Positions 24,749 to 61,532 of a stretch of 64,000 nt of DNA are shown here, piece after piece (position 1 is the stretch's first letter; every line of letters starts with the position of its first letter). The position numbers and the translations under genes were made by a program. The DNA is from Marinobacterium rhizophilum DSM 18822 (lineage in GTDB: Bacteria > Pseudomonadota > Gammaproteobacteria > Pseudomonadales > Balneatricaceae). The notes under the pieces are model-generated. The model was not told the origin of the DNA, searched no databases, and worked only from the letters and a program-made list of their open reading frames with translations. The stretch is taken from assembly GCF_000378045.1 (NCBI RefSeq), contig NZ_KB899105.1, forward strand, positions 62,001-126,000. The letters run 5' to 3'.

Positions 24749-24750
24749 GA

Positions 24751-37920: not shown

Positions 37921-38212
37921 TTTACAAAGCCTCTTTCTTCTCAAACTGTCAAAAATGGAACAGCCTCGAATAAAAATTCTGAAAAATATACCGCATAAAA
38001 CCGTCTCTAGTTAGAGACAGATCTTCATCGTTCTGAGACCGACTTAATATTACTGAACTTTGAAATTTCATGTTAATTCGCTTTTATTACGGCCATAGGA
38101 AACAAATGAAATAATCCATTAACGCGCGACTATCATTGTCACCCCGCAAGTGTGACATAAACTTATTCGCTCTCACGAGCAGTCGACTAACTCTCCCCTC
38201 GAGCGGTAGTTG

Positions 38213-38298
38213 AACTGAAAATGGCAAAACCATCGAGAGGTGGTGACGCAAAGTTTCCGGTCTTACGGACTATTCCGACGATAGCGGGACCGCCAGTT
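38213..38298 (+). ncRNA. GEMM-I cyclic di-GMP riboswitch upstream of gspC
   Basis: The segment has the GEMM-I architecture. Closing stem AACTG/CAGTT with GGC/GCC encloses GGCAAAACCATC, a GAGA tetraloop and GGTGGTGACGCAAAG, then a second arm TTTCCGGTC with GATAGCGGGACCGCC. The GNRA tetraloop, the ACGCAAAG joint and the final AGCGGGACC are diagnostic. The two G residues before CAAA match the c-di-GMP rather than the cGAMP form, as far as I can align by eye. It lies 165 bp before gspC and should control the whole secretion operon. Whether c-di-GMP switches it on or off is not evident. Confidence 0.88.
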
Positions 38299-38463
38299 AT
38301 GAATACCGACACGTTTTCATCTTCGCGTTCTTGTATTGCCTGACGACAAACCGGCCCAGGCCCTCGGTCACATCTTAAGACTTACGCTACAAGAATCGAG
38401 CAGCCCTCGCCAAGGGCCGCCCAACTGTATTTTCAGACCCCAACGGAATCGCGAGTCCCCACC

Positions 38464-38955
38464 ATGTTGCATGAGCCGATTCGACAGCTTTTGGCATCGC
38501 CTGCGTTTCCCCGCACCGTCAGCCTGCTGCTGGCGCTGCTGGCGCTGCTCGAAGGTGCCCAGATCGCCCGCGCTTTCTCGTCCGCCGCGTTACCGGTGAC
38601 GGCATCGGCTGCATCCGGTCCGGAGAGCGCGACAGCCAAACGTATCGACCTGGACGCCATTCGCCAGGCCCGGCTCTTCGGGGCCGCCGGAACGCAAGCG
38701 GCCCAAACGGAGCCCAAACCGGCGGCCTCGCAGCGCAGGAGCCGCCTCGATATCCGGCTGCTCGGCGTGGTCAAGGCGCAACAGGGCACGGACTCCGTCG
38801 CTATCCTGGCTGAGTCCGGCCGTCAGCGCGCTTATACGACCGGCGAACGGCTGAAGGGGAACTCCGGCGCGGAACTGGTCGAAATCACGGCGAACCGGAT
38901 CCTGCTCGACGTATCCGGCGAACGGCAGTTTATTGAACTGGAAAAAATGAAATGA
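38464..38955 (+). CDS. gspC: Type II secretion protein GspC, short form
   Basis: GspC is the inner-membrane clamp that links the platform to the secretin. The 163-residue protein has one N-terminal helix (TVSLLLALLALLEGAQIARAF, core residues 19-38), a linker, and the HR domain RLDIRLLGVVKAQQGTDSVAIL (core about 97-117) with GERLKGNSGAELVEI. It ends right after the HR domain, so the usual C-terminal PDZ or coiled-coil part is absent. It is the first gene of the gsp operon, behind the riboswitch, and overlaps the next gene by 4 bp. The ATG has only a weak ribosome site. Confidence 0.85.
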   Translation: MLHEPIRQLLASPAFPRTVSLLLALLALLEGAQIARAFSSAALPVTASAASGPESATAKRIDLDAIRQARLFGAAGTQAAQTEPKPAASQRRSRLDIRLLGVVKAQQGTDSVAILAESGRQRAYTTGERLKGNSGAELVEITANRILLDVSGERQFIELEKMK

Positions 38956-39674
38956 TCAGCCTCAATACACTCATGCGCCCGGTCATCATCCTGACGCTGG
39001 CGCTGATCGCGGCGGGCTGCGCGCCCTTCGCCCAGCTGAAGCCCAGCGGCGATGCCGTCGGGCCCAAGGCGCAGACCGCCCTGTACGACGAAAGCCTGGC
39101 CCTGATGGAAGCGGGCCAGCACGCCGCGGCGGCACAGCGCCTGGGCACGCTACTCGCGAGCGAGCCGCGCGGCGACGACCGCAGCCGGGCGTTGCTGGCG
39201 CTTGCGTATAGCCAGCTCAAGCTCGGCCAGCCTGAGCGCGCTGCACAGCTGGCCAGCCGTGTCATCGCACAAAACACCCAGAACAGCCCGCAGGATTACG
39301 CTCTCTACCTGCGGGCCAGCGCCCTGCTGGCCGAGCAGCCGGCTCCGACGCCGGGCCAGGCACGCCAGGCCGCACTTGATCTCGAAAACCTCGGCCGGCA
39401 CTACCCGGACAGCCGCTACGCCACCGCCACCCGGGAAACGCTGGCCGGACTCCGGGAGCGCCTGGCCGCAACCGAACTCGAAACCGCCAGGCGGCAACTG
39501 CAGGACCGGGCCTACGTCGCGGCGTTGAACCGCTGCCGCTACCTCATCGAGCGATACCCCGGAACGCGGGCGGTTCCGGCCGCACTGGAGCTGATGGTGA
39601 CCGCCTACCGGCAACTGGGACTGGATCAGCTGGCAGACAACACCCGCGCCATTCTGCAAGGCCGGACACCCTGA
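38952..39674 (+). CDS. TPR lipoprotein in the gsp operon, BamD-like, candidate pilotin
   Basis: This 240-residue protein has a lipoprotein signal with lipobox LIAAGC (Cys about 23), so it should be anchored in a membrane by lipid. The rest is helical with TPR-like pairs, for example ALYDESLALMEAGQHAAAA, DYALYLRASALLAEQ and NRCRYLIERYPGTRAVPAAL. The last resembles BamD/YfiO repeats. It is inserted between gspC and gspD with 4-bp overlap to gspC. Outer-membrane lipoproteins that guide secretins (pilotins such as GspS, or TPR proteins such as PilF) suggest that role. This is inference; the protein is not GspS by sequence. Confidence 0.75.
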   Translation: MISLNTLMRPVIILTLALIAAGCAPFAQLKPSGDAVGPKAQTALYDESLALMEAGQHAAAAQRLGTLLASEPRGDDRSRALLALAYSQLKLGQPERAAQLASRVIAQNTQNSPQDYALYLRASALLAEQPAPTPGQARQAALDLENLGRHYPDSRYATATRETLAGLRERLAATELETARRQLQDRAYVAALNRCRYLIERYPGTRAVPAALELMVTAYRQLGLDQLADNTRAILQGRTP

Positions 39675-39739
39675 CCCGACAATATTCTGCAGCCGTCCGC
39701 CGGAAGGCTGCGAACTTACACCATGAGACGGATGTAACC

Positions 39740-41827
39740 GTGCATAATTTCAAGTTCAACGAGCCAGTAGCAGTGTCTGTTCAACCGCCACGCCGGGCGG
39801 CCGCAAAGGGCACCGCAACCCGCACACGCACCGCGGCGGGGGCGTTCAGACGGCTGGCCGCCGGCACCCTGCTCGCGCTGCTGGCAGGCACCGCCTCCTG
39901 GACGGCCCAGGCCGCCGAACCGGACACCGACACCGGCGGCTACAGCCTGGACATGCGCGATACCGAAATATCGGAATTCATCGCCACCATCGGCAAACTC
40001 ACCGGTAAAACCATCATCATCGACCCGCGGGTACGCGGCAAGGTCACCGTCAGCAGCCCGAAATCCATCACCCGCGAGGAGCTGTACGAGATTTTCCTGG
40101 TACAGCTGGGCGTGAACGGCTTTTCGGTCGTCGACGTGGGCGACAATATCCTCAAGGTGATTCCGCAGCAGGCGGTCAAACTCGAGGGCGTGGAAGTCCA
40201 GGGCGACAACAGCGCAGCCCCGAACAGCAGCGAGAACATCGTCACGCGCGTGGTGCAGGTGAACAACGTCGATGTGGACGCTCTGGTGCCGATCCTGCGA
40301 CCACTGGTGGATAACCAAACCGGCATCATCGCGCCCTACCCCGCTTCCAACGTCATCCTGATCACCGACCGCGAATCCAACGTGCGGCGCCTGCTCGACA
40401 TTATCGTGCGGGTCGACAAGGCGGACACCGAGGACACCGAGATCGTCCCGCTGAACAATGCCTCGGCGCAGGAGGTCAGCCAGACGCTGATGACGCTGTT
40501 GCGCGAGCGGAACAGGGGTGGCAAGAGCACGCAGGCCCCTCCCCAGGTCACGGCGGACAGCCGCACCAACAGCCTGCTGATTCGCGGTAACGAGTCCAGC
40601 CGCGACTACCTGCGCAAGATCGTCCGTCGCCTCGACGGCGAGGTCCGCACCGACAACAACACCCGGGTGCACTACCTCAAGTACGCCAAGGCGGCGGATC
40701 TCGCCACTGTGCTCGAGAGCGTCACCGGCACTCTGGTCAAGGATGAAAGCGGCAGCCGTGGCAATGACGAGGAAAGCCGCGCCAGCATCCATATCGAGGC
40801 CCACGAGGCCACCAACAGCATCGTGCTCTCCGGCAGCCCCAGGATCATCCGCAGCCTGACGCAGCTGATCGAGCAGCTCGACATACGCCGCGCCCAGGTG
40901 ATGGTCGAAGCCATCATCGTCGAAATGTCCGAAACCCGGGCCAAGGAGCTCGGGGTGCAGTGGCTCCTGGCCGGACGCGACAACGGCGACAGCCTCACCT
41001 TCGCCGGCACCAACTACAACAACCTGGGCAACGGTCTCAACGGGATCGCCGCCGCATCCAACAATGCCGACGCCCAGGGCAATATCCTGTCCGGCATCGA
41101 GGGGCTTAGCGCAGGGGTGGGCAAGCTCGATGCCTCGGGTCTGAATTTCGGCGTGCTGCTCAAGGCGCTGCAGAACGACAACGAGTCCAACATTCTATCG
41201 ACCCCGAGCCTGGTGACCATGGACAACGAGGAAGCCTCGATACTGGTGGGCAGTGAGGTACCGGTCGTCACCGGCCAGACCATCGGCGACAACAACAGCA
41301 ACCCGTTCCAGACCATCGAACGCCAGGAGATCGGCATCAAGCTGCACATTACTCCACAGGTCAACGAAGGCAGCGCGGTGCAGCTGAAGATCGAGCAGGA
41401 AGTGTCGTCGCTGACCGGCGTGCGCGGAGCCGCCGACATCATTACCGACAAGCGCGAGATCAAGACGTCGGTGATGGTCGACGACGGCGCCACCATCGTG
41501 CTCGGCGGCCTGATCGACGACGACGTCCAGGAGCAGGCTTCGAAAGTCCCGCTGCTGGGAGACCTGCCGTTCATCGGTCGGCTGTTCCGCTCCGACAGCA
41601 GCCAGATCACGCGGCGCAACCTGATGGTATTCATCCGCCCCACCATTATCCGTGACCGCAACACCCTGACCGAGGTCAGCAGCGCCAAATACGGCTATAT
41701 CCGCGCCCGCCAGATGCTGAGCGAGAACGCGGACGTGAACCTGTTCCCGGACGAGGCGCCACGGGTGCTGCCCGAGTGGACCGGCATGGGCCCGGCGTCA
41801 CTCGAACTGCTGCCACCCGGAAAATAA
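39740..41827 (+). CDS. gspD: Type II secretion secretin GspD
   Basis: GspD forms the outer-membrane channel. The 695-residue protein has a long N-terminal region with a hydrophobic signal (about 38-58, ending TAQAAE), the N0 domain (YSLDMRDTEISEFIATIGKL), N1-N3 domains, and the secretin core. EVPVVTGQTIG, ERQEIGIKLHITPQV and VPLLGDLPFIGRLF lie in the last 200 residues. No S-domain is obvious at the C-terminus, though the last 45 residues are not conserved. The GTG start at 39740 has only a weak ribosome site, and the signal peptide is unusually far from it. Confidence 0.94.
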   Translation: MHNFKFNEPVAVSVQPPRRAAAKGTATRTRTAAGAFRRLAAGTLLALLAGTASWTAQAAEPDTDTGGYSLDMRDTEISEFIATIGKLTGKTIIIDPRVRGKVTVSSPKSITREELYEIFLVQLGVNGFSVVDVGDNILKVIPQQAVKLEGVEVQGDNSAAPNSSENIVTRVVQVNNVDVDALVPILRPLVDNQTGIIAPYPASNVILITDRESNVRRLLDIIVRVDKADTEDTEIVPLNNASAQEVSQTLMTLLRERNRGGKSTQAPPQVTADSRTNSLLIRGNESSRDYLRKIVRRLDGEVRTDNNTRVHYLKYAKAADLATVLESVTGTLVKDESGSRGNDEESRASIHIEAHEATNSIVLSGSPRIIRSLTQLIEQLDIRRAQVMVEAIIVEMSETRAKELGVQWLLAGRDNGDSLTFAGTNYNNLGNGLNGIAAASNNADAQGNILSGIEGLSAGVGKLDASGLNFGVLLKALQNDNESNILSTPSLVTMDNEEASILVGSEVPVVTGQTIGDNNSNPFQTIERQEIGIKLHITPQVNEGSAVQLKIEQEVSSLTGVRGAADIITDKREIKTSVMVDDGATIVLGGLIDDDVQEQASKVPLLGDLPFIGRLFRSDSSQITRRNLMVFIRPTIIRDRNTLTEVSSAKYGYIRARQMLSENADVNLFPDEAPRVLPEWTGMGPASLELLPPGK

Positions 41828-41830
41828 ACC

Positions 41831-43348
41831 ATGGCCACGCTACCGAACAGCGACCGGAACACGCCGGTCGACGATGCTGGCACCGCGCTGCAGCTGCCTT
41901 TCGCCTTCGCGGACCGCTATCGCCTGGTGGTCGATGGCGAGGCCGGTGCACTGAGCTGCCACTATCTGCCGCAGACGCCGGTCGAGGCGATCCTCGAGGC
42001 CAGGCGCTTCCTGGATGCCGAGCTGACGCTGGTCCCAACCACGCCCGAGGAACTGGAACAGCGCCTCGGCCGCCTCTACCAGCACAGCGGCCAGGCTGAC
42101 ATGCAGCGAATGGAGCAGATCGGCGACGACGACGACCTCTTCGAGCTGATCGACGAACTGCCGGAAAGCGAAGACCTGCTGGCCGCCGACGGCGACGCAC
42201 CGATCATCCGGCTGATCAACGCCCTGCTGAGCGAGGCGCTGCGCGAAGGCGCCTCCGATATCCACATCGAGCCCTACGAAAAAAACCTCTCGGTGCGGCT
42301 ACGCATCGACGGCGTGATGCGCGAGATCCTCTCACCCAACTACAAACTGGCGACGCTGCTGTGCTCGCGCATCAAGGTCATGGCCAAGCTCGACATCGCC
42401 GAGAAGCGGCTGCCGCAGGACGGCCGCACGGCGCTGCGCATCGGCGGCCGTGCCCTGGATGTACGCGTCTCGACCCTGCCCTCCCGCCATGGCGAAAGGA
42501 TCGTGATGCGCCTGCTCGACAAGCAGACGGCCCGCCTCGACCTGTCCGACCTCGGCATGCCCGAGGCGACACACCGGGCCTTCCGGCGCCTGCTGCTGCA
42601 GCCCAACGGCGTGATCCTGGTGACCGGCCCTACCGGCTCGGGCAAGACCACCACCCTCTACGCCGGACTCGGCCTGCTCAACAACCGTTCGCGCAATATC
42701 CTCACCGTGGAAGACCCGGTCGAGTACGCGATCGAGGGCGTCGGCCAGATCCAGGTCAACAGCCGCGCCGGCATGACCTTCGCCAAGGGCCTTCGCGCCA
42801 TGCTGCGCCAGGACCCGGACGTGCTGATGATCGGCGAGATCCGCGACGTCGAGACCGCCGAGGTCTCGATCCAGGCGAGCCTCACCGGCCACCTGGTACT
42901 GTCGACCCTGCACACCAACAGCGCGGTCGGCGCCATCACCCGCCTGCGCGACATCGGCATTGATCCCTACCTGGTGGCCTCCAGCCTCAAGGGCGTGCTG
43001 GCGCAGCGCCTGCTGCGGCGCCTGTGCCCGCACTGCCGCACGCCGGCGCGCATCGACCAGGACGAAGCCTTGAGGCTGAACAGCCCCGCGTTCGAGGGCA
43101 CCGATGCCTTCGCAAGCCAGGGCTGCGACGCCTGCAACCAGACCGGTTATCGCGGGCGCGTCGGCGTCTACGAACTGGTCGAGGTCGATGCCGACCTGGC
43201 GGTGCTGATCAACCAGGGCGCCGGCGAAGTCGAGATGCAGCGGCATCTGCAGAACCGCATGAACTCGCTGATGGACGAGGCGCGCGAGCTCGTTGCGCGC
43301 GGCGTCACCAGCGTCGACGAAGTCCTCCGAATCGTACGCAGTGACTGA
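41831..43348 (+). CDS. gspE: Type II secretion ATPase GspE
   Basis: GspE is the cytoplasmic ATPase that drives the pseudopilus. The 505-residue protein has an N-terminal domain, then GASDIHIEPYEKNLSVRLRIDG, Walker A GPTGSGKTTTLY (about 264), the Asp box VEDPVEYAIEGVGQIQVN, Walker B DPDVLMIGEIRD and the His box HLVLSTLHTNSA. The zinc-finger pairs CPHC and CDAC lie at about 399 and 432. It starts 3 bp after gspD. Confidence 0.96.
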   Translation: MATLPNSDRNTPVDDAGTALQLPFAFADRYRLVVDGEAGALSCHYLPQTPVEAILEARRFLDAELTLVPTTPEELEQRLGRLYQHSGQADMQRMEQIGDDDDLFELIDELPESEDLLAADGDAPIIRLINALLSEALREGASDIHIEPYEKNLSVRLRIDGVMREILSPNYKLATLLCSRIKVMAKLDIAEKRLPQDGRTALRIGGRALDVRVSTLPSRHGERIVMRLLDKQTARLDLSDLGMPEATHRAFRRLLLQPNGVILVTGPTGSGKTTTLYAGLGLLNNRSRNILTVEDPVEYAIEGVGQIQVNSRAGMTFAKGLRAMLRQDPDVLMIGEIRDVETAEVSIQASLTGHLVLSTLHTNSAVGAITRLRDIGIDPYLVASSLKGVLAQRLLRRLCPHCRTPARIDQDEALRLNSPAFEGTDAFASQGCDACNQTGYRGRVGVYELVEVDADLAVLINQGAGEVEMQRHLQNRMNSLMDEARELVARGVTSVDEVLRIVRSD

Positions 43349-43353
43349 CAAGC

Positions 43354-44571
43354 ATGGCCGCCTTTAACTACCGAGCCCTGACCGCCGACGGCGGCGCCCG
43401 CAAGGGACTGATCGAAGCCGACTCGCCGCGCCAGGCCCGCGCGCTGCTGCGCGAACAGGGCCTGATGCCGACGTCGGTGGAAACCGCCAGCGCGGCGAAA
43501 CCGGCCCGCGCCGGCCGGCCCCGACTGGCGCGCGCGCTGCCGGCGCGCGACGTCGCGCTGCTGACGCGACAGCTCGCCACCCTGATCGACTCCGGTCTGC
43601 CGCTGGAGGAAGCCCTGCTGGCCGTCTCGCGCCACAGCAACGATGCGCGCCTCAAGTCGACGGTGCTGTCGGTGCGCGGCCGCATCCTTGAAGGTCACAG
43701 CCTCGCCTCAGCGCTGTCGGAATACCCACGCAGCTTCAGCGAGCTGTACCGCGCCATGATCACCGCCGGCGAAGAAACGGGACACCTCAGCGCCGTACTG
43801 CTGCGGCTGGCAGAGCACGGTGAACGGTTGCAGCAGATCCGCGGCAAGGTCCAGGTTGCGCTGATCTATCCAACCATGCTGACGCTGGTGGCCATCGGCG
43901 TTATTGGCCTGCTGATGACCTACGTCGTGCCCAAGGTGGTGGAACAGTTCACCCACACCCAGCAGACGCTGCCGTTCCTCACCCGGCAGCTGATCCTGAT
44001 CAGCGATGGCCTGCAGCAGTACGGCCTGCACATCCTGGCGTCGATGGCGCTGCTGGCGCTGCTGGCACGCTGGTACCTGCACGACAGCGGCCGGCGCACC
44101 GGCTGGCACCGCATGCAGCTGCGCTTGCCGCTGCTCAATACCTTCGTGCTGGGCCAGCAGTCGCTGCAGTTTGCCCGCACCCTGGCGATCCTGGTGGGTA
44201 GCGGAGTCGATCTGCTGCACAGTCTCAAGGTCGCCGCCGGCCCCATGACCAACCTCTACCTCAGGGGCGCGGTGCTCGATTGCATGGAACGGGTCCGGGG
44301 CGGCAGCTCGCTGTCGCGCGCGCTGGAACAGTCCGGCCCCTTTCCGCCGCTGCTGGTATACATGATCGCCAACGGCGAGAGCAGCGGCGAACTGGAAAGG
44401 ATGCTGGACAAGGCCGCGGAAAACCAGGAAGCGGAATTCGAGACCCGCGTCGCCTGGCTGCTGGGGCTGTTCGAACCGGCCCTGATACTGACCATGGGCG
44501 TGGTCGTGCTGGGCATCGTGCTGGCAATCCTGCTGCCCATCCTGGAACTCAACAATATCAGCTCGTATTAA
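43354..44571 (+). CDS. gspF: Type II secretion inner-membrane platform protein GspF
   Basis: GspF is the polytopic platform that couples the ATPase to the pilus. The 405-residue protein has the family start MAAFNYRALTADGGARKGLI and three membrane helices (about 170-192, 222-240 and 375-397). The duplicated cytoplasmic domains contain LTRQLATLIDSGLPLEEAL and FARTLAILVGSGVDLLHSL. It starts 5 bp after gspE. Confidence 0.96.
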   Translation: MAAFNYRALTADGGARKGLIEADSPRQARALLREQGLMPTSVETASAAKPARAGRPRLARALPARDVALLTRQLATLIDSGLPLEEALLAVSRHSNDARLKSTVLSVRGRILEGHSLASALSEYPRSFSELYRAMITAGEETGHLSAVLLRLAEHGERLQQIRGKVQVALIYPTMLTLVAIGVIGLLMTYVVPKVVEQFTHTQQTLPFLTRQLILISDGLQQYGLHILASMALLALLARWYLHDSGRRTGWHRMQLRLPLLNTFVLGQQSLQFARTLAILVGSGVDLLHSLKVAAGPMTNLYLRGAVLDCMERVRGGSSLSRALEQSGPFPPLLVYMIANGESSGELERMLDKAAENQEAEFETRVAWLLGLFEPALILTMGVVVLGIVLAILLPILELNNISSY

Positions 44572-44584
44572 CGGAGACCGACAA

Positions 44585-45016
44585 GTGACGTCAAACATCA
44601 AGCAAACCGGACAACAGGGCTTCACACTGCTGGAGATCATGGTGGTTATCGTGATTCTGGGGTTGCTGGTGGCCATGGTGGCCCCCAATGTGCTGCAGAA
44701 CCAGGACAAGGCCATGGTCGAAAAGGCCAGGGCCGACGTTGCCCTGCTGGAGCAGGCGCTGGACATGTACAAACTCGACAACTTCCAGTACCCGACCACC
44801 GATCAGGGGCTCGAGGCCCTGGTAACCAAGCCGACCACCGGACCGGCACCCAAGCGCTACAACCCCAACGGCTATATCAAGCGCCTGCCTACGGATCCCT
44901 GGGGTAACGCCTACCAGTACCTGCAGCCGGGCGTCACCCGGGCGTTCGATATCTATTCCCTGGGGGCGGACGGCGAATTGGGTGGTGAAGACCTTGCCAA
45001 AGATATCGGCAACTAG
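44585..45016 (+). CDS. gspG: Major pseudopilin GspG
   Basis: GspG is the main pseudopilus subunit. The 143-residue preprotein has a short leader cut at QG and then FTLLEIMVVIVILGLLVAMV with Glu5. The C-terminal part keeps the GspG pattern YPTTDQGLEALV, YIKRLPTDPWGN and DIYSLGADGELGGE, where the calcium site lies. It follows gspF by 13 bp. A prepilin peptidase (GspO) is needed for processing but is not encoded in this operon. Confidence 0.96.
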   Translation: MTSNIKQTGQQGFTLLEIMVVIVILGLLVAMVAPNVLQNQDKAMVEKARADVALLEQALDMYKLDNFQYPTTDQGLEALVTKPTTGPAPKRYNPNGYIKRLPTDPWGNAYQYLQPGVTRAFDIYSLGADGELGGEDLAKDIGN

Positions 45017-45083
45017 GGGTTTGTCGAACTTAATGCTGGTCTACTCGGCTCGGGCATCCTGCTTCGCTCTGCCTCCTGCATCC

Positions 45084-45599
45084 ATGCAGTCGTGCGGAGA
45101 AGCCCGACAGGCTGCCAGGGGCTTCACCCTGCTGGAAATGATGGTGGTGATGGTCATCCTCGGGCTGCTGTCGGTCGCGGTATCGCTGGCACTGCCGGAC
45201 AGCGCCCGGCAGCGCCTGGACACCGATGCGCAGCGGCTGCGGGGTCAGATCGGGCTGGCGATGGAACAGGCGATCTACCGCAACCGCGATTACGGCCTGG
45301 GTGTCGGCGAGCACGGCTACGGCTTCTTCGAGCGCGACGGCGAGACCTGGCTAGCGCTGGACGGGGACGCCCGGCTCGAGCCCTATCCGCTCGACGCCGA
45401 CAGCCGCCTGCGTCTCAGCGTCTGGGGCGAGCCGGTACCCACAGAGGGCACCGGCCGCGAGCCGCAGATTCTGTTCCTCTCTGACGGCCAGGTCAGCGCC
45501 TTTGAGCTGTGGATCGACCACGACGGCGTGCCGACACACCGGCTGATCACCGCAAGTTTCGCCGGCGACCTGCGCCTGCTCGAACCGGAGCTGCCATGA
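45084..45599 (+). CDS. gspH: Minor pseudopilin GspH
   Basis: GspH is a minor pseudopilin. From the ATG at 45084 the product has 171 residues with a 13-residue basic leader, cleaved before FTLLEMMVVMVILGLLSVAV. In-frame ATGs at 44982 and 45033 would give unusually long leaders; no start has a clear ribosome site. The C-terminal domain has the GspH pattern LFLSDGQVSAFELWI. Its stop overlaps the gspI start as ATGA. Confidence 0.85.
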   Translation: MQSCGEARQAARGFTLLEMMVVMVILGLLSVAVSLALPDSARQRLDTDAQRLRGQIGLAMEQAIYRNRDYGLGVGEHGYGFFERDGETWLALDGDARLEPYPLDADSRLRLSVWGEPVPTEGTGREPQILFLSDGQVSAFELWIDHDGVPTHRLITASFAGDLRLLEPELP

Positions 45600-45964
45600 A
45601 ACCCTGCACTCAGCGCGGCTTCACCCTGCTGGAGCTGCTGGTGGCCCTGGCCATCTTCGCGCTCTCGGCCGGCGCCCTGCTCAAGACCCTGGGCGAACAG
45701 GGGCGCAATGCCGGCCAGCTGGAGGCTCGCTATTTCGCGCAGCTGGCCGCCCGCAACCAGCTGTCGCGGCTACACCTGCAGCCGGCCTGGCCCGACCTCG
45801 GCGAGCGCGATCACGACATCGAACTGGCCGGCCGCCGCTTTGCGCTGACACAGAGCGTGCGCAAAACGGACAGTCCCTCCATCCGCCGCGTCACGCTCAG
45901 CGTCAGCGGCAACGCTGGACAGATTCTGGCCGAGCTGGAAGCCTTCATGGGACCCCGGTCATGA
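45596..45964 (+). CDS. gspI: Minor pseudopilin GspI
   Basis: GspI sits at the tip of the pseudopilus with GspJ and GspK. The 122-residue preprotein has leader MKPCTQRG followed by FTLLELLVALAIFALSAGAL. The central RNQLSRLHLQPAWPDLGE fits the GspI N-LA.L pattern. The ATG at 45596 overlaps the gspH stop; a longer reading would place the leader motif too deep. It overlaps gspJ by 4 bp. Confidence 0.92.
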   Translation: MKPCTQRGFTLLELLVALAIFALSAGALLKTLGEQGRNAGQLEARYFAQLAARNQLSRLHLQPAWPDLGERDHDIELAGRRFALTQSVRKTDSPSIRRVTLSVSGNAGQILAELEAFMGPRS

Positions 45965-46575
45965 GGCGTGCAGCCGGTTTCACCCTGCTGGAAGTGCTGG
46001 TGGCGGTCGCGCTGCTGGCGATGCTGGGGCTCGCGGCGGCGCTGACGCTCAACAGCGGACTGCGCAGCCAGCAGACACTCAGCGAGAACCTGAGCAGCCT
46101 GCAGCGTCTGCAACTGGCACAGCAGCTGATCCAGCGCGACCTGGAGCAGATCGTCGCGCGCAGGGGCCGCGGCGAACAGGGTGATTTCCGCGACCAGCCG
46201 CTGGCCGCGGGTGAAGACGGTACCCTGCTGGACTTCTACAAGACCGGCCGGCGTCAGCTGCAAAGCCGCATGCCGGGCTCCGACCTCGAACACCTGCGCT
46301 ACCGCTTTGAAGACGGACACCTGGTGCGGGACGCCACCCCGCTGATCGACACCCCCCCGGACACACCCTGGCACAGCGTTACCCTGCTGGATCAGTTGAA
46401 CGGGGTTGAACTGCGGTATTTCTACGACGGCGACTGGATAGACCAGTGGCCACCGGTGCGCGCCGCCACCTTCGGCGGGCATGTCAGCCGCCTGCCGCTG
46501 GCCCTGGAGCTGACGCTGAACACCGAGCGTTATGGAGCGGTAACGCAGATCATGCTGCTGCCGGATGCCTCCTGA
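45961..46575 (+). CDS. gspJ: Minor pseudopilin GspJ
   Basis: GspJ is the third minor pseudopilin. The 204-residue protein has leader MRRAAG and then FTLLEVLVAVALLAMLGLAA with Glu5. The family pattern LVRDATPLIDTPPDTPWHS and LLDQLNGVELRYFYDG appears in the C-terminal half. Start and stop overlap the neighbouring genes by 4 and 1 bp, a sign of translational coupling. Confidence 0.93.
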   Translation: MRRAAGFTLLEVLVAVALLAMLGLAAALTLNSGLRSQQTLSENLSSLQRLQLAQQLIQRDLEQIVARRGRGEQGDFRDQPLAAGEDGTLLDFYKTGRRQLQSRMPGSDLEHLRYRFEDGHLVRDATPLIDTPPDTPWHSVTLLDQLNGVELRYFYDGDWIDQWPPVRAATFGGHVSRLPLALELTLNTERYGAVTQIMLLPDAS

Positions 46576-47600
46576 TGACCGCTCCCCCGAGTTCGAGACA
46601 GCAGAACGCCGGCGTCGCCCTGATGATCGTATTGCTGGTCGTGGCGATGATCAGCCTGGTCGCTGTCCAGATCGGGTCGCTGCTGCAACTGGGTATCCGC
46701 CAGGCCGGCAACCGCGAACAGTACCAGCAGGCGCAGTGGTTCGCCCTCGGCGGCGAACGCCTGGCGCGGTCGCTGATCGAATCGGCGTTCGAGCACGACA
46801 AGCGCATTCATCCGGGTCAGGCCTGGGCGATGCCCGGCCGCCGGTACCCGATCGACGGCGGCTCGATCCGGCTCGACATCCGCGACCAGGGCGCCTGCTT
46901 CAACCTGAATGCGCTCAGCGCCCTGACCACCGACCAGGACGGCAGCAAGCAGAAGCCGCCCCAGGCGGTGCGCCAGCTCGCCAGCCTGATACAGGCCCTG
47001 GGCGGCAGCGAGGCGGAAACGGCGCAACTGCTGGAACCGCTGCGTGACTGGCTCGACGAAGACAACCTGACCACCGGGCTCCGGGGCGCAGAGGATCTCT
47101 ACTACACCGCGCGGCAGCCGCCGTACCTGCCGGCCAACGGCCCGCTGGCGTCCCTGTCGGAGCTCGGTTTCATCCGCGGGTTCCGCCGCGACGACGACTA
47201 TGTGCCGCTGTCGGAAGAGCTGCGGCCCTGGCTCTGCGCGCCGCCCGACCGCGACCTGCTGCTGAACCTGAACAGCCTGGGCGCCAACAGGCTGGCACTG
47301 CTGTCGGCGCTGTTCGAGGGCAAAGTGCCGACCGACCGCCTGACGCAGGCTCTCAATGCAAGGCCTGCCGGCGGCTTTCGCAGCGCCGACGAGTTCTGGC
47401 AGCGACTGGCGGGCGACGAGTCCCTCGCCGGCCGGCTCGATGCCCAGGTGCGTCCGCAATTACGCGTGACCTCGGACTTTTTCCTGGCGCGCATCGAGGT
47501 GAACCTTCATGAGACGAATCTGGTGCTGTACAGCCGGATACAGGTGCGCAACGATCAGACGGCCGTCTACCAGCGCCACTACGGAGCTTTGAATGAGTGA
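46575..47600 (+). CDS. gspK: Minor pseudopilin GspK
   Basis: GspK caps the pseudopilus tip. The ATG at 46575 overlaps the gspJ stop and gives 341 residues. The leader ends in NAG, followed by VALMIVLLVVAMISLVAVQ. Position 5 is not Glu, as is usual in GspK. The large alpha domain has FNLNALSAL and LNLNSLGANRLALLSAL. It overlaps gspL by 8 bp. Confidence 0.93.
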   Translation: MTAPPSSRQQNAGVALMIVLLVVAMISLVAVQIGSLLQLGIRQAGNREQYQQAQWFALGGERLARSLIESAFEHDKRIHPGQAWAMPGRRYPIDGGSIRLDIRDQGACFNLNALSALTTDQDGSKQKPPQAVRQLASLIQALGGSEAETAQLLEPLRDWLDEDNLTTGLRGAEDLYYTARQPPYLPANGPLASLSELGFIRGFRRDDDYVPLSEELRPWLCAPPDRDLLLNLNSLGANRLALLSALFEGKVPTDRLTQALNARPAGGFRSADEFWQRLAGDESLAGRLDAQVRPQLRVTSDFFLARIEVNLHETNLVLYSRIQVRNDQTAVYQRHYGALNE

Positions 47601-48750
47601 ATTTCTGCTGCTGCAGCTCGGGCGGCGGCCCGACGAGCCCATCGAATGGCTGATCTGGAACCCTGCTGAGTCCTGCCGTCTAGACGGCGGCGTGCTGGCC
47701 GGCGCCGACGAAATGTCGCAGCTCGACGCGGCCGCGGCCGGGCGGCCCTGTTACGCCCTGCTGCCCCAGGAACAGGTGCTGGTCACCGAGGTCCGACTGC
47801 CCAGGGCCGGGCGCGCAGCTCTGGCCGCCATTCCCTTCCAGCTCGAAGAGCAGCTGTGCGAGGATCCGGCAATGCTGCATTTCGCCGTTGGCCGCCCCGA
47901 TGCGCAGCGCCGCTACCCGGTGGCCATCATCTCGCGGCTCCTGATCTCCGCCTGGCGCGACGCTCTGGCGGCGACCCCGCTCAGGATCCAGGGGCTGTAC
48001 GCCGACGCCCAGAGCCTGAGGCCGGACCCCGGCCGGGTGCAGCTCCTGCGCCGGGGCTCGCGGCTGCTGATCAGCGGTCCCGGCGGCACGCTGGCCATCA
48101 ACGCCGCCGAACTGGAGCACTGGCGCCCCCTGCTGGAGCGGCAGGAGGCGCTGGAATGGCCCCAACCCGATAACGTTGAATCCTCCCTGTCGCAACTGGC
48201 GGCGCGGCTGGCGCCGGAGCAGGCCATCAACCTGCTGCAGGGCGACTACCGATTGCAGGACCCCGACGCAAGCCGGCTGCGCCGCTGGCGCACCCCCGCG
48301 ATCCTGGTCCTGGCGCTGCCGATCCTGGGCTTCGCTTCTTTGGGCCTGGACAACTACCGCCTCGTCCAGCAGAAATCGGCACTGGACCGGCAGGCAGCGG
48401 AACTGTTCCGGGAGGCCCTTCCCGATGTGCGCCGCATGGTCGACCCGCGGACCCAGATGTCGCAACGGCTCGACGAGCTGCGCCAACGCCAGCAGGGGCC
48501 GATGCTGCTGCGCCTGCTGGAAAGAACGCTGCCGGCCTTTCGCCGGCACACCAGCGTTCGGCTGACCGGTCTGGGTTTCACCGAGAACGGCCAGACGCTG
48601 ACGCTCAGCCTCGAAGCCGCCGACCCCGACGCGCTCAAAAGCTTCGCCAAGGTGCTCGCGGACGAGGGTCTGCGGTTCCAGCCGGCACAGCCCCAAAACC
48701 GCCAGTCACACCGCAGCCTGCAAATTCGCATAGAGGGAATCGAACCATGA
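47593..48750 (+). CDS. gspL: Type II secretion protein GspL
   Basis: GspL recruits the ATPase GspE to the inner membrane. The 385-residue protein has an actin-like cytoplasmic domain, with ALLPQEQVLVTEVRLP and IPFQLEEQLCEDP near residues 53-100. One membrane helix lies at about 236-255 (ILVLALPILGFASLGL), followed by a periplasmic ferredoxin-like domain. It overlaps gspK and gspM by a few bases. Confidence 0.93.
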   Translation: MSEFLLLQLGRRPDEPIEWLIWNPAESCRLDGGVLAGADEMSQLDAAAAGRPCYALLPQEQVLVTEVRLPRAGRAALAAIPFQLEEQLCEDPAMLHFAVGRPDAQRRYPVAIISRLLISAWRDALAATPLRIQGLYADAQSLRPDPGRVQLLRRGSRLLISGPGGTLAINAAELEHWRPLLERQEALEWPQPDNVESSLSQLAARLAPEQAINLLQGDYRLQDPDASRLRRWRTPAILVLALPILGFASLGLDNYRLVQQKSALDRQAAELFREALPDVRRMVDPRTQMSQRLDELRQRQQGPMLLRLLERTLPAFRRHTSVRLTGLGFTENGQTLTLSLEAADPDALKSFAKVLADEGLRFQPAQPQNRQSHRSLQIRIEGIEP

Positions 48751-49211
48751 TCCGGACCTGGTTAGAAGGGCTCGAAGGACGCGAAAAGCGCCTGCTGATC
48801 GTGGGTGGCCTGCTCGGGCTGGCCATGCTGCTGTTCCTGCTGTGGCGTCCCCTGGCGGCGGCACAGCAACGCCTGCAGACACAGGTGGATCAGAGGCAGG
48901 CGCTGGTCGACTGGATGACCCGGGCCACGGCGGAAATCAGGCAGTTGCAGCCCGGCGGCGGCGATACGACATCGTCAGAAGGCCCGCTGACGCAGCGGAT
49001 CGAGGCCTGGAGCCGCCAGCTGGGGCTCCAGGCGAAAACCTTGCCCGGCAACGGCACCGAGATCAAGGTGACGCTCGACGGCGCCAGCTTCGACCGGGTG
49101 CTGGACTTTGTTGACCAGGCCGGACGGGCGGGCCTGCGGGTGAGTGGCGCCGAGATTCGCGCCCTGAAGACGCCCGGACAGGTGACGGCCAGCCTGACCC
49201 TGAGCCCCTGA
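48747..49211 (+). CDS. gspM: Type II secretion protein GspM
   Basis: GspM partners GspL in the inner membrane. The 154-residue protein starts with a short cytoplasmic tail (TWLEGLEGREKRLLIVGG), one helix (about 18-34) and a small periplasmic domain. It is the last intact gene of the operon. I see no clear terminator right after it. Confidence 0.9.
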   Translation: MIRTWLEGLEGREKRLLIVGGLLGLAMLLFLLWRPLAAAQQRLQTQVDQRQALVDWMTRATAEIRQLQPGGGDTTSSEGPLTQRIEAWSRQLGLQAKTLPGNGTEIKVTLDGASFDRVLDFVDQAGRAGLRVSGAEIRALKTPGQVTASLTLSP

Positions 49212-50194
49212 GATTCCGTTAACCGCCTTGACGCCACCCCGCTCCAGTCCCGTTTCCCCGCGGGCGCCAGCTGGAAGCTCAAGGTGATCCTATTTCTGGG
49301 CGGATGCGCCTTGGTCTGTCCGCCCGGAACCTAGTGGCGCATTTCGCACCGCCGCTTTCGCGTGCCGTATCGGCCATAGAGCCCGCTCGGTGCGCATATG
49401 AGTCTCATCAGACATTCGATTCGCCCGCAGGCCATATCAAGGTGCCGCGGCAGCCTGCCGCCCGAAGTCGTATTATTGATGAAGCGGGTCTATAGATATC
49501 AGCGGTTGACAACATGCTGCCGCAATTAGCTGCAAAGGGTTCGCCGATGCAGATAAATATATCAGACTGATTACGGATTCATTAATAAACGAGCTCGTTA
49601 GTCTGCACATATTTAATACAAGTCCAATCAATATCCTTTGAATAAATCCTATTCCCCATGATGGATATCAATATTCGAATCTCTATAATTGAATTTTCAA
49701 GCCGTCTCCGATTAGGAACAAAAACATCTTAACTGTTTCTTAAATTAAGTTTTTCTACTAGATTAGCGATTTAATGTTCAATAATTACATCGCCGTGAAA
49801 CACTTGAAATAATATGTTAATCGAAAATATTCACCCTCCACGTCTGTGAGGTGATTATTTAGATTCCTCACGGACAGTTGGCTAACTCTCCTTTCTGGTG
49901 GTAGCTAAACTGAAAAAGGCAAACCCACCGAAAGGTGGCGACGCAACGTCTCCGGTCTAACGGAATTTTCCTATGATAGCGGGACCGCCAGTTTTGAATG
50001 CCGGCACGTCTTACGTGTTCGCTTCTTGATATTACATTTTGACCCTGAATATTGATGCCGTGACATCATGCAACGCGGCGTTGTGACGTCCGTATTCTTG
50101 ATGTAGCGGTAGGGGAAAAGGATTTCAGGCAAGGCTGCGGGCAACCGCCTTCTGGGAAATTGAAAAATATTATTCGATATGCAAAGGAATTATA
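49212..50194. other. Long leader and spacer between gspM and levansucrase, with possible gspN remnant
   Basis: No intact gene is seen in these 983 bp. At about 49270-49335 the plus strand reads SWKLKVILFLGGCALVC and then, in another frame, RNLVAHFAPPLS. This is like a frame-shifted N-terminus of GspN, which normally follows gspM; the match is weak. From 49500 the sequence becomes AT-rich. The part 49790-50030 is related to the leader upstream of gspC and contains the second riboswitch. Confidence 0.45.
49908..49993 (+). ncRNA. GEMM-I cyclic di-GMP riboswitch upstream of the levansucrase
   Basis: Closing stem AACTG/CAGTT encloses GGCAAACCCACC, a GAAA tetraloop, GGTGGCGACGCAACG, TCTCCGGTC and GATAGCGGGACCGCC. 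It is the same architecture as 38213-38298 with compensating changes in the helices (CCACC/GGTGG here against CCATC/GGTGG there) and a variable second arm. It lies 200 bp before the levansucrase start, enough for an expression platform. Co-regulation with the secretion operon follows if both are functional. Confidence 0.88.
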
Positions 50195-51769
50195 ATGCGT
50201 ATTAAATGTAGTAAACCGGCACTCCCAATGCTGGGAATGCTCATGGGTGTAGCAACCGCCGCTGTCGCAGAACCCTATCTACAACCGGGTCCCGAGCCGA
50301 CCCTTCACACACAGCAGGCCTTTGCACCGGAGAGCAACTTCACTGCGAAGTGGACTCGGGCGGACGCGCGCCAGATCAAGCGAATGTCTGACCCGACGGC
50401 CGGCTCACGTCAGAACTCGATGCCTGCGGAATACACCATGCCCGACGTCCCGCAGGACTTCCCCGACATGTCGAACGAACAGGTCTGGGTGTGGGACTCC
50501 TGGCCTCTGACCGACGCTGACGCGAAGCAGTACAGTGTCAACGGGCAGGAAATCATCTTCTCCCTCGTTGCCGACCGGAACCTCGGCTTCGACGAGCGCC
50601 ACGTATTCGCAAAGATCGGCTACTTCTACCGTCCGGCCGGCATCCCCGCTGACCAGCGACCGGAGAACGGTGGCTGGACCTACGGCGGCCTCGTCTTTGA
50701 CGAAGGCGTCACCGGCCAGATCTTCGAGGACCAGTCCTACAGCCACCAGACCCAGTGGTCAGGCTCGGCGCGCATCTTCCCGGGCGGCGAGATCAAGCTG
50801 TTCTTCACGGATGTCGCCTTCTATCGTGACCCCAATGGCGGCCCGGACATCAAGCCGTACGACCCGCGGATCGCGCTCAGCGTGGGCCATGTGCATGCCA
50901 ACAAGAACGGCGTGAAGTTCACCGGCTTCGACAAGGTCATTTCGCTGCTCGAGGCAGACGGCACCTACTACCAGACCGCTGAGCAGAACCCGTACTTCAA
51001 CTTCCGCGACCCATTCACCTTCGAGGACCCGGCTCACCCAGGTGAGACCTTTATGGTGTTCGAGGGCAACTCGGCCATGGATCGAGCAACTGCCCAGTGC
51101 GACGCGGATGACCTCGGCTACCGGGACGGCGACCCCTACGCCGAGACCGTAAGGCAGGTCAACGAGTCGGGTGCACCCTTCCAGATCGGCAACGTGGGTC
51201 TGGCTAAGGCATTGAACGACGACCTTACCGAGTGGGAATTCCTGCCGCCGATCCTGTCGGCAAACTGCGTAACCGACCAGACCGAACGGCCGCAGATCTA
51301 CCAGCAAGACGGTAAATATTACCTCTTCACCATCAGCCACAGCACCACCTACGCGGCCGGCATTACAGGCCCCGAGGGCGTGTACGGCTTCGTGGGCAAC
51401 GGTATCCGCAGCGATTACCAGCCGATGAACCAGGGATCCGGCCTGGTGCTGGGTAACCCGACGAACCTCAACTACTGGCCCGGGACCCCGTTCGATCCCG
51501 ACTACAACCAGCACCCCGGCCAGTTCCAGTCGTACTCGCACTACGTGATGCCTGGTGGTTTGGTCCAGTCATTCATCGACACAATCGGCGTCAAGGACAA
51601 CTTCCGTCGCGGCGGCACCCTGGCACCCACCGTGAAGATCAACATCAACGGTGACTCGTCGTCGGTTGATTATTCCTACGGCGTCAACGGCAATGGCCTG
51701 GGTGGCTGGGCCGATATCCCGGCTGAGATCAATGTGAACCCGGGCGGGCAGGTCAAGCCGCTGAAGTAA
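50195..51769 (+). CDS. Secreted levansucrase (GH68)
   Basis: Levansucrase transfers fructose from sucrose to build levan and releases glucose. The 524-residue protein has a Sec signal peptide (about 1-25, ending AAVAEP). GH68 residues are visible: the nucleophile in VWDSWPL (Asp101), the stabiliser in FRDPFTFED (Asp about 272), and the acid/base in TERPQIYQ (Glu about 363). The AAGGAATTATAATG start is good. It is preceded by a riboswitch and followed by a GH32 gene. In Gluconacetobacter diazotrophicus a levansucrase is exported by a neighbouring type II system; the same route is likely here. Inulosucrase is a less likely alternative. Confidence 0.92.
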   Translation: MRIKCSKPALPMLGMLMGVATAAVAEPYLQPGPEPTLHTQQAFAPESNFTAKWTRADARQIKRMSDPTAGSRQNSMPAEYTMPDVPQDFPDMSNEQVWVWDSWPLTDADAKQYSVNGQEIIFSLVADRNLGFDERHVFAKIGYFYRPAGIPADQRPENGGWTYGGLVFDEGVTGQIFEDQSYSHQTQWSGSARIFPGGEIKLFFTDVAFYRDPNGGPDIKPYDPRIALSVGHVHANKNGVKFTGFDKVISLLEADGTYYQTAEQNPYFNFRDPFTFEDPAHPGETFMVFEGNSAMDRATAQCDADDLGYRDGDPYAETVRQVNESGAPFQIGNVGLAKALNDDLTEWEFLPPILSANCVTDQTERPQIYQQDGKYYLFTISHSTTYAAGITGPEGVYGFVGNGIRSDYQPMNQGSGLVLGNPTNLNYWPGTPFDPDYNQHPGQFQSYSHYVMPGGLVQSFIDTIGVKDNFRRGGTLAPTVKININGDSSSVDYSYGVNGNGLGGWADIPAEINVNPGGQVKPLK

Positions 51770-52038
51770 CAGCGCCTCTGATTATATTTGCTCAAACTTA
51801 GGAGGGGTGGGATGCAGTGCCTATACAGGCCGGCGTATCCTTCCCCTCTCTTGTCTTATCAGGGCGACTGCAGCGCAATCTCGAAAAGCAGCCCCGTTTT
51901 CCTGCTGCACGGCAGGAAATCTAGGGCGCGCGGCGTCTACCTGTTTTTCAATTGATTTCGTGCTGACCAGCGACATCGAGGTGTTCTTTGAGTACCTTCG
52001 GTGAACCGTTTCTGGTCAACATTTCGATACGGAGGATT

Positions 52039-53694
52039 ATGAGACACAATCTCATCCCAAGATCTGCAACGCGCCAGCGTGTAACGGTTTGCGCGCTTGT
52101 CGCGCTCTTCACTTCTAGCATCGCGGTAGCCGTCGTTTTCGGATCCAGTTCTGAAACTGCACCCGATGCCGCACGGTTGTCCCCGTTACCAACTGAAGCA
52201 TCCCTGTTCTCGCGCCCGGCCGACTGGGCGCCTTATCGGCCCGCCGTGCACCTCACCCCCGCCAAGCACTGGATGAATGATCCCCAGCGCCCGATCCTGA
52301 TCGACGGCGTCTGGCACTACTACTACCTCTACAATGCCGACTACCCCCAAGGGAACGGCACCGAGTGGTATCACGCGACCTCGACCGACCTGGTGCACTG
52401 GCAGGAACATGGCGTCGCGATCGACAAGTACAAAAACGGCCTCGGCGACATCGAGACCGGCAGCGCCGTGATCGACACAAATAACACCGCAGGCTTTGGC
52501 GCCGGCGCGGTGATCGCCATCATGACCCAGCAGCACGAAGGCGTGCAGCGCCAGTCTCTCTTCGTCTCGACCGACGGCGGTTATCGCTTTGAAGCCTACG
52601 ACGGCAACCCTGTCATGGACAACCCGGGCGCCGATCACTGGCGTGACCCCAAGATCATCTGGGACGACGCCCGCGACGAATGGCTCATGGCACTCGCCGA
52701 GGGCCACAAGATCGGCTTTTACACCTCGCCCGACCTGAAGCGCTGGACGTACCAATCGGGCTTCGAGCGCGACGACCTGGGTATTCTCGAGTGTCCCGAC
52801 CTGTTCCGCATGTCGGTCGACGGTGACCCGGCAAAAACGCGATGGGTGCTGGCGACAGGCGCGAACGGTTTCAAAAAAGGCAGGACCACGGGAACCGTAT
52901 ACTGGACCGGTGACTGGGACGGCGAACGCTTCACCGCGGACCAAGACGAACCGCGCTGGCTCGACTCGGGCGCCGACTTCTACGCCACCGTGACGTGGGA
53001 CGACCCGCGCCAGAACGACGCCGAACGCCTCGCCTCCCGCTATGCCATCGGCTGGCTCAACAACTGGGCCTACGCCACCAGGCTCCCGACCGACGACTGG
53101 CATGGCGGCGCCAACTCGATCGTGCGGCGCATCGAGCTGCGGTTGGTCAACGGCAAGCCAGTGCTCGTCTCGCAGCCCGTAAACACAGTCGACCAGCTTG
53201 AGGGCAATGCCGAGGTGCGTTCCAAGGTACGGGTGACGGCTACCGCGAAGACAACACTCCCCCAGCCGGAATCCGATGCCTACCGACTCCGGGTCGAGCT
53301 TGACGCAGCCTCAGATGCCAATGAGGTCCGGTTCCGTCTCAAGGAAAAGGGGGAGCACTTTGCGATAGTCGGATACAACTTCGCGGATGACACTGTCTTT
53401 GTCATGCGTGACAGGGATGCGATAGCCAACTCGATGCCCGAGGTGTACCGCGAGGTTCGAAAGGCCCCCGCTCCGGCGCGCGATGGTGTTGTCACGCTGG
53501 ACATCATTGTTGATACAACCTCGATCGAAGTCTTCGTGAATGACGGCGAAGTTGTACTCTCAAATCTCGTATTCGGAGCCCACGGTGCAAATAGTCTTTC
53601 GGTCGAGTCATTTGGAGGGGACACGGAATTGCGTCTATTCCAACTCTCGCCCCTCAAGGTTGCACCGATTAAGCGCTATGGCGGTGAACTCTAG
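52039..53694 (+). CDS. GH32 fructan hydrolase (levanase/sucrase-like), exported
   Basis: This 551-residue enzyme should hydrolyse levan or sucrose outside the cytoplasm. The N-terminus is basic, then hydrophobic (about 15-34, CALVALFTSSIAVAVVF), a signal peptide or membrane anchor. GH32 sites are WMNDPQ (nucleophile Asp81), WRDPKIIWDD (Asp about 204) and ILECPDLF (Glu about 250). The canonical NDPNG is NDPQR here. A C-terminal beta-sandwich module follows from about 375. GGAGG lies 4 nt before the ATG at 52039. It is 269 bp after the levansucrase; the pair resembles the lsdA-lsdB arrangement, so exo-levanase is the best guess. Confidence 0.88.
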   Translation: MRHNLIPRSATRQRVTVCALVALFTSSIAVAVVFGSSSETAPDAARLSPLPTEASLFSRPADWAPYRPAVHLTPAKHWMNDPQRPILIDGVWHYYYLYNADYPQGNGTEWYHATSTDLVHWQEHGVAIDKYKNGLGDIETGSAVIDTNNTAGFGAGAVIAIMTQQHEGVQRQSLFVSTDGGYRFEAYDGNPVMDNPGADHWRDPKIIWDDARDEWLMALAEGHKIGFYTSPDLKRWTYQSGFERDDLGILECPDLFRMSVDGDPAKTRWVLATGANGFKKGRTTGTVYWTGDWDGERFTADQDEPRWLDSGADFYATVTWDDPRQNDAERLASRYAIGWLNNWAYATRLPTDDWHGGANSIVRRIELRLVNGKPVLVSQPVNTVDQLEGNAEVRSKVRVTATAKTTLPQPESDAYRLRVELDAASDANEVRFRLKEKGEHFAIVGYNFADDTVFVMRDRDAIANSMPEVYREVRKAPAPARDGVVTLDIIVDTTSIEVFVNDGEVVLSNLVFGAHGANSLSVESFGGDTELRLFQLSPLKVAPIKRYGGEL

Positions 53695-53924: not shown

Positions 53925-54000
53925 GCATTCGCAACGATAATGCGCTTGAGGTCATCGCCCGCGAAATTTCAACTGCACGGCAGCCACAGGACTCGAAGTA
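53925..54000 (+). pseudogene. Glycosyltransferase 3'-end fragment (right flank of island)
   Basis: The frame GIRNDNALEVIAREISTA and then TAG at 53998 repeats the C-terminus of the GT1 enzyme at 35986-37374 (IRNDNALEVITREISTA). The first 32 bases are identical. Later changes are one Thr/Ala and several silent third positions, and the last residues differ. It is probably the original end of the gene, separated from its body by insertion of the island. The stretch 54001-54181 downstream has no recognisable gene. Confidence 0.75.
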
Positions 54001-61450: not shown

Positions 61451-61532
61451 TCAATTTACTCCGTCATAGGGCACTCACTAGACTTCTAGGTGAGCGCCAT
61501 AATATTTCTAATACGTTCGTAGAAGGCGCGCA

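Follow-up and report, generated by a model that had tools for sequence, protein, structure and literature searches.

Can one class of cyclic di-GMP (c-di-GMP)-binding RNA govern both a polymer-forming enzyme that acts outside the cell and its likely exporter? The question is raised by a locus of Marinobacterium rhizophilum DSM 18822 in which a type II secretion system (T2SS) operon, gspC to gspM, is followed by genes for a fructansucrase of glycoside hydrolase family 68 (GH68) and a GH32 fructan hydrolase. The window, that is, the whole stretch of DNA analysed, was 64,000 nt long and was searched by cmscan with Rfam 15 at gathering cut-offs. As listed in Table 1, one class-I c-di-GMP (GEMM-I) riboswitch aptamer was found before gspC and another before the GH68 gene. 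A sequence-only reading of the locus had proposed both RNAs, and its coordinates were correct to within a base or two. That aptamer was detected with RF03167 (c-di-GMP-I-GGC), which belongs to the same clan as RF01051; with RF01051 itself it scored 67.8 bits (window positions 38213-38297, contig C17 positions 100213-100297). Both leaders were above the gathering cut-off of RF01051 (35 bits), and their scores were far beyond chance expectation. R1, a covariance model trained on 17 GEMM sequences, gave 85.4 bits for the gspC-side site, which is one of its training sequences. Both aptamers lie on the same strand as the coding gene and read into it, about 165 nt ahead of gspC (start 38464) and about 200 nt ahead of the GH68 gene (start 50195), the second leader being contained in the 983-bp gap between gspM and the GH68 gene. 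The observation is confirmed; the interpretation first attached to it, a direct link from biofilm signalling to the enzyme and its exporter, is partly supported.

The two leaders were 81% identical over 168 bp, flanks included, and are therefore paralogues, a relationship that the sequence-only reading had not noted. In the covariance-model alignments, the gspC aptamer had a GAGA tetraloop with CUUA/GACG and the GH68 aptamer a GAAA tetraloop with CUAA/UAUG, positions that we take to be the tetraloop receptor. The changed tetraloop and receptor of the gspC aptamer could alter its affinity, and because the aptamers differ at these sites the c-di-GMP level needed for a response may not be the same for both operons.

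We consider it probable that class-I c-di-GMP riboswitches of a single leader lineage head both the T2SS operon and the fructan cassette and that c-di-GMP would co-induce exporter and enzyme. When c-di-GMP is high, in surface or biofilm life, ligand binding would lock the P1 helix (AACUG/CAGUU) and raise expression, as for Vc1 before gbpA. The T2SS would then carry the Sec-exported GH68 enzyme, and perhaps the GH32 enzyme, out of the cell, where GH68 would make fructans from sucrose and GH32 would remobilise them. The gbpA protein of Vibrio cholerae is itself exported by a T2SS. In the passages found on Vc1, this riboswitch is an ON switch with c-di-GMP and has no apparent terminator or anti-Shine-Dalgarno sequence between aptamer and gene (PMC4744006). 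Like the GH68 leader, which precedes the gene of a predicted secreted enzyme, Vc1 is a GEMM-I RNA with no platform apparent, in its case before a secreted protein; unlike the RNAs described here in their proposed role, it controls one secreted protein, an attachment factor for chitin-like surfaces, and neither a secretion operon nor a polymer-forming enzyme (same passages of PMC4744006).

The cassette had been read from the sequence as a secreted levansucrase and a GH32 fructan hydrolase behind a GEMM-I leader. The aptamer, the GH68 and GH32 domains and their motifs all stood up to analysis; the name levan did not fare as well. The motifs VWVWDSW, FRDP and TERPQIY were present in the GH68 protein at 97, 270 and 363, respectively, and presumably hold the nucleophile Asp, the stabiliser Asp (RDP) and the acid/base Glu (ERP); the roles of the GH32 motifs are likewise assumed. 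The solved chains that best matched the GH68 protein are named beta-fructofuranosidase (3vsr, 890.8 bits), ahead of levansucrase 1w18 (623.4 bits), which calls for caution with the word levan. The product may be beta-2,6 levan or short fructans, or the enzyme may mainly hydrolyse. GH68 was found in one of the 116 genomes of the family, and the cassette therefore looks like a newcomer here.

Is the neighbourhood of exporter and enzyme meaningful? It is unlikely, in our view, that the two share a location without sharing a function, with the T2SS exporting other proteins and the GH68 enzyme being periplasmic or leaving by another route. Such a reading would fit the GH68 loci of Vibrio, Tolumonas and Alteromonas, which, unlike the M. 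rhizophilum locus, had no gsp gene in the flanks retrieved; the best GspD proteins of the genomes searched were distant (42-46% identity), with 42% in Tolumonas and 46% in Vibrio albus, in both encoded elsewhere in the genome (Vibrio sp. J1-1 was left out). However, GH68 or GH70 was encoded near the operon in four of the four genomes found with this T2SS lineage, namely M. rhizophilum (G000), the sister species G006, Azotobacter chroococcum (G120) and Azotobacter beijerinckii (G121). Since it was GH68 that led to G120 and G121, selection has affected this count, but it did not act on the GH70 neighbours. Also against mere co-location, a gspE-like gene of another lineage (54%) begins about 6 kb past the GH32 gene in Azomonas, and the passages found on Gluconacetobacter diazotrophicus describe a T2SS operon required for export of the GH68 enzyme LsdA (PMC2765452).

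Eight genomes were searched directly for GspD: three (G006, A. chroococcum and A. beijerinckii) had proteins at 65-73% identity and the other five at 38-46%. The next-best GspD among the 369 genomes of the class sample was 47% identical. Identity to M. rhizophilum in G006 and A. chroococcum was 73% and 65% for GspD and 80% and 82% for GspE, respectively. The gene order was gspC...gspM-GH68-GH32 in M. rhizophilum, GH70-gspC... in G006, GH70, a divergent glycosidase-like gene and gspC... in A. chroococcum, and GH68-GH32-GH32-transposase-like gene-gspC... in A. beijerinckii.

The leader recurred before GH68 genes elsewhere. A pattern-based scan of a collection of genomes from 84,980 species yielded 294 GH68 relatives; the 80 best were taken and joined with four plasmid loci. 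Among these 84 loci, R1 matched three: those of Tolumonas osonensis (L037), V. albus (L038) and Vibrio sp. J1-1 (L039), of which the first two, and not the third, were among its training sequences. This number is a lower bound because some loci had little upstream DNA (20 bases in L057). In all three, the same kind of GEMM-I aptamer stands 260-310 nt ahead of the first aligned GH68 codon, and GH32 comes next, as in M. rhizophilum. GEMM-I ahead of GH68 was found in three genomes besides this one, from two genera, and the paired arrangement was seen only in M. rhizophilum. R1 gave no GEMM-I match at the actinobacterial, acetobacterial or burkholderial GH68 loci searched. A tree was made from 23 GH68 proteins (22 from the 84 loci and that of the window); in it, the window protein and five gammaproteobacterial rows formed a clade with support of 100/99. 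Four of its six rows carry GEMM-I, and two changes were needed, a number as low in 7 of 500 label shuffles; the pattern fits one gain and one loss, the loss in Alteromonas. The same kind of leader also preceded a GH70 glucanotransferase gene, near the homologous T2SS, in G006 and A. chroococcum. The two GH70 proteins were 76% identical, and three of the four GtfD motifs given in the passages found of PMC5388325 were recovered in a pattern search. From sequence comparison, the GEMM-I leader on GH68 and GH70 is a recurring lineage and more than a one-genome oddity.

Seven leaders were aligned (two from M. rhizophilum, three before GH68 elsewhere and two before GH70). In this alignment, 76 of 190 columns were invariant and mean column identity was 78%; pairwise aptamer identity was 84-95% among six of the seven. 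P1 consists of AACUG with CAGUU, with a compensated change in Tolumonas. An upstream hairpin, P0, uses a strand of P1 and was present in the minimum free energy fold of six of the seven leaders, with z of -0.6 to -2.5 against shuffles, which is modest support; the seventh, from A. chroococcum, had a different fold (z -0.8). RNAalifold gave P0 14 pairs, two of them changed on both sides, with an unfavourable covariation term (+0.88). We therefore offer P0 as a suggested leader feature only. A downstream hairpin, P4, had z of -2.7 in V. albus, -2.0 in the GH68 leader of M. rhizophilum and 0.0 to -1.0 in the other five.

Several results weigh against co-induction as proposed. No expression platform (terminator or anti-Shine-Dalgarno) was found in either M. 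rhizophilum leader by terminator search and P1-forced folding, noting that folding of long leaders is weak evidence in either direction. The gspC leader had no terminator-like site on the plus strand (one match, minus strand), and the GH68 leader had one weak plus-strand match (three counting both strands; shuffle mean 1.4). Sequestration of the Shine-Dalgarno site by P1 switching was rejected, as forcing P1 barely shifted start-site accessibility (0.60 to 0.59 for GH68 and 0.40 to 0.46 for gspC); it cost energy in both folds (-114.7 to -102.2 and -88.3 to -85.1 kcal/mol). The gspC aptamer, lacking a canonical tetraloop receptor, could be weak. The pairing of GEMM-I on a T2SS operon with GEMM-I on the enzyme rests on one genome. 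R1 found no GEMM-I at the close GH68 genes of two Alteromonas, two Azotobacter and one Azomonas loci, and A. beijerinckii has GH68-GH32-GH32 with the T2SS and no GEMM-I match in its genome.

With no platform found that would fix the sign of control, both RNAs could be real and yet be OFF switches, so that c-di-GMP would repress exporter and fructan enzymes, which would serve sucrose foraging by planktonic cells and not the matrix. The GH32 partner, which suggests carbon scavenging, and the beta-fructofuranosidase names of the best solved GH68 relatives are in keeping with this. We nevertheless think it improbable: Vc1, the nearest studied analogue before a secreted attachment protein, is ON, and the same kind of leader precedes GH70, a relative of which in A. 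chroococcum NCIMB 8003 makes a reuteran-like polymer according to the part of PMC5388325 that was found.

How often does GEMM-I stand near a T2SS? In the class sample, GEMM-I was found in 67 of the 369 genomes and GspD (E <= 1e-100) in 182. Distances were counted in 39 genomes with both; G204, G207, G289, G318, G335 and G433 also had both and were left out. GEMM-I and GspD were within 20 kb in two of the 39, M. rhizophilum and G241, a count that draft assemblies with many contigs lower. The RNA of G241 (L254:8796-8882, minus strand) reads away from the T2SS operon, into a gene for 274 aa without a Pfam match at E <= 0.001. A common proximity of GEMM-I to T2SS genes was therefore rejected. In the family sample (114 genomes), 13 had a T2SSC match (E <= 0.001) and GEMM-I, the T2SSC matches of G104, G041 and G064 being below the Pfam cut-off; in four of the 13 (G000, G006, G106 and G108) the two were within 20 kb, compared by eye. 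The T2SSC matches of G106 and G108 were weak (28.8 and 36 bits), and the RNAs nearby precede genes with M11-like metalloprotease or cadherin domains. G006 was considered as a second riboswitch-led T2SS operon and not accepted: two overlapping terminator-like sites lie on the coding strand between GH70 and gspC (L129 9486-9506; shuffle mean 0.5), which leaves it doubtful that the RNA governs this T2SS, although transcription could read through. M. rhizophilum is therefore the only genome found with GEMM-I directly before a T2SS operon (1 of the 39 in the class sample).

This singularity also bears on the possibility that the gspC leader is a decaying copy left by rearrangement, in which case GEMM-I would truly serve GH68, or else an ancestral GH70 like that of G006, while the leader on the T2SS would be without effect. 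When positions 38150-38700 were compared with the corresponding stretch of G006, where the leader precedes GH70, only the leader aligned well (142 bp, 84%), and not the region just before gspC. The GAGA loop, the altered receptor and the weak downstream hairpin of the gspC leader (z -0.3) point the same way. However, the aptamer keeps its high RF01051 score and its core blocks, and P1 and the upstream hairpin are still able to pair; decay would be expected to lose these features. We regard the decaying copy as rather unlikely and favour co-induction through two working leaders.

A further idea we hold as a doubtful possibility: a transferable GEMM-I leader, with P0 competing with P1, may be specialised for extracellular homopolysaccharide enzymes (GH68 and GH70) and may have been duplicated onto the T2SS in M. 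rhizophilum and its aptamer re-tuned there; an increase in c-di-GMP would then deploy exporter and polymerase in sequence. If true, this would be a riboswitch-built secretion-and-matrix regulon. To our knowledge, the routes known for c-di-GMP control of the matrix are mostly transcription factors, PilZ-type receptors and glycosyltransferases. In the present locus, a single lineage of ligand-binding RNA would govern an extracellular polymer enzyme together with its export machine. Since the leader recurs ahead of GH68 or GH70 in Vibrio, Tolumonas, Azotobacter and Marinobacterium, a riboswitch regulon open to testing is predicted, and the occurrence of both natural aptamer variants in the same genome is a direct test case for threshold tuning.

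Known systems supply the parts. The sequence-only reading had rightly pointed to a T2SS beside levansucrase and levanase genes in G. diazotrophicus: in the passages found, a T2SS operon adjoins lsdA-lsdB, which encode a GH68 enzyme and a levanase, a setting like that described here (Arrieta 2004, as cited in PMC2765452). Unlike here, lsdA is described there as constitutive and lsdB as probably controlled by antitermination, and the word riboswitch was not found in that paper (PMC2765452). The acetobacterial T2SS gene order, seen in Kozakia, differs from that of M. rhizophilum, and R1 found no GEMM-I in the Kozakia locus or two Asaia loci, G. diazotrophicus not being among the loci searched. 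The gtfD/gsp locus of A. chroococcum is similar, with the same kind of leader (before GH70) and the same T2SS lineage nearby; in strain DSM 2286 (L040), unlike in M. rhizophilum, about 6.7 kb and a divergent gene separate the RNA from gspC. The passages found of the A. chroococcum NCIMB 8003 genome paper guess that gsp may export levan enzymes and hold no c-di-GMP riboswitch; the word riboswitch occurs three times, always for cobalamin, and gemm not at all (PMC4465626). A review, as far as its retrieved text goes, lists gbpA, tfoX, chitinase and fimbrial genes among those that c-di-GMP riboswitches precede (PMC6366702). The Aeromonas hydrophila GEMM-I before chitinase and fimbrial genes resembles the present case in serving a carbohydrate-active, probably secreted enzyme; it differs in that the enzyme degrades and does not form a polymer, and no secretion operon is named in that text (PMC6366702). 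Among the matches listed in the open full-text literature of PubMed Central, outside which subscription journals mostly lie, no paper described GH68, GH70 or a T2SS operon under a c-di-GMP riboswitch, in line with the earlier statement that no description of the module under such control was known. Overall, known parts are arranged here in a new way, and the leader lineage recurs.

The T2SS operon spans 38464-49211 on the plus strand, and its core set is complete, with Pfam matches, in order, to T2SSC, YfiO, Secretin, T2SSE, T2SSF, T2SSG, GspH, T2SSI, T2SSJ, T2SSK, T2SSL and T2SSM. Five Gsp proteins were also checked against NCBIfam: GspD, GspE and GspK passed, and GspC and GspM were below cut-off, GspC because it is short and covers only the first part of the full-length model. 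The BamD-like lipoprotein gene between gspC and gspD, which the sequence-only reading had passed over, was kept in all four T2SS of the lineage; its product is a candidate secretin pilotin. GspE was considered as a second c-di-GMP receptor and rejected, as it had no MshEN Pfam match at E <= 0.001. No prepilin peptidase (GspO/PilD) was among the scanned operon genes, and no genome-wide search was made.

Table 1. Features of the M. rhizophilum locus, in window positions
Feature	Position	Strand	Evidence
53-bp repeat, copy 1	37295-37347		92% identical to copy 2
gspC leader element (aptamer and flanks conserved with GH68 leader)	38172-38337	+	sequence comparison within window
c-di-GMP-I-GGC/GEMM-I aptamer 5' of gspC	38213/38214-38298	+	RF03167 60.9 bits, cut-off 59, E 6.7e-12
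gspC (163 aa, short)	38464-38955	+	Pfam T2SSC 75.1 bits (passes Pfam cut-off); TIGR01713 50.2 bits, cut-off 101.6
BamD/YfiO-like tetratricopeptide repeat (TPR) lipoprotein	38952-39674	+	Pfam YfiO 135.2 bits; BamD structures, best E 6.8e-22; lipobox-like LIAAGC
gspD, secretin	39740-41827	+	Pfam; TIGR02517 563.9 bits, cut-off 351
gspE, ATPase	41831-43348	+	Pfam, N-terminus GSPE_N1E; passes NCBIfam cut-off
gspF	43354-44571	+	Pfam
gspG, major pseudopilin	44585-45016	+	Pfam
gspH	44982-45599	+	Pfam
gspI	45509-45964	+	Pfam
gspJ	45961-46575	+	Pfam
gspK	46446-47600	+	Pfam; passes NCBIfam cut-off
gspL	47593-48750	+	Pfam
gspM	48747-49211	+	Pfam; NCBIfam match below cut-off only
GH68 leader element	49867-50033	+	sequence comparison within window
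c-di-GMP-I (GEMM-I) aptamer 5' of GH68	49908-49992	+	RF01051 69.7 bits, cut-off 35, E 1.3e-11; R1 87.4 bits (R1 training sequence)
GH68 fructansucrase (524 aa)	50195-51769	+	Pfam Glyco_hydro_68 470.5 bits; Sec-type N-terminus by eye
GH32 fructan hydrolase	51988-53694	+	Pfam Glyco_hydro_32; motifs NDP, RDP, ECPDL; likely start 52039, giving 551 aa (by reading)
53-bp repeat, copy 2	53925-53977		the two copies bracket the cassette

The M. rhizophilum genome contained four RF01051 sites, including the two described above. The third is just 5' of an 877-aa open frame with M11-peptidase and cadherin-like domains. The fourth is about 500 nt 5' of a TauE/SafE-family gene and is overlapped by a 110-aa frame without assignment. 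In L130, L131 and L249 (genomes G006, G004 and G106), GEMM-I sites occurred in series about 5-7 kb apart, and the seven scanned genes next to them encode proteins with Big or cadherin-like domains, and several of these proteins also have M11-like metallopeptidase domains.

Around the cassette, a tandem array with a 45-bp period (54295-54655) lies just 3' of GH32, inside an open reading frame (54077-55042) without a Pfam match. A 133-bp inverted repeat of 80% identity (37788-37920 and 19035-19166), perhaps of insertion-sequence remnants, has one copy just 5' of the gspC leader. Upstream of the cassette, a LysR regulator, a cytochrome P450 and a glycosyltransferase with an EryCIII-like C-terminus are encoded in series (33192-37374, plus strand). 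At a distance of about 9 kb from the cassette, a defence island (19220-28716, minus strand) encodes the R, M and S proteins of a type I restriction-modification system and then a 1236-aa reverse transcriptase similar to PADLOC Drt1a at near full length (1454 bits). An alpha-operon ribosome binding site RNA was found at 61418-61502 on the minus strand (RF00140, 45.1 bits).

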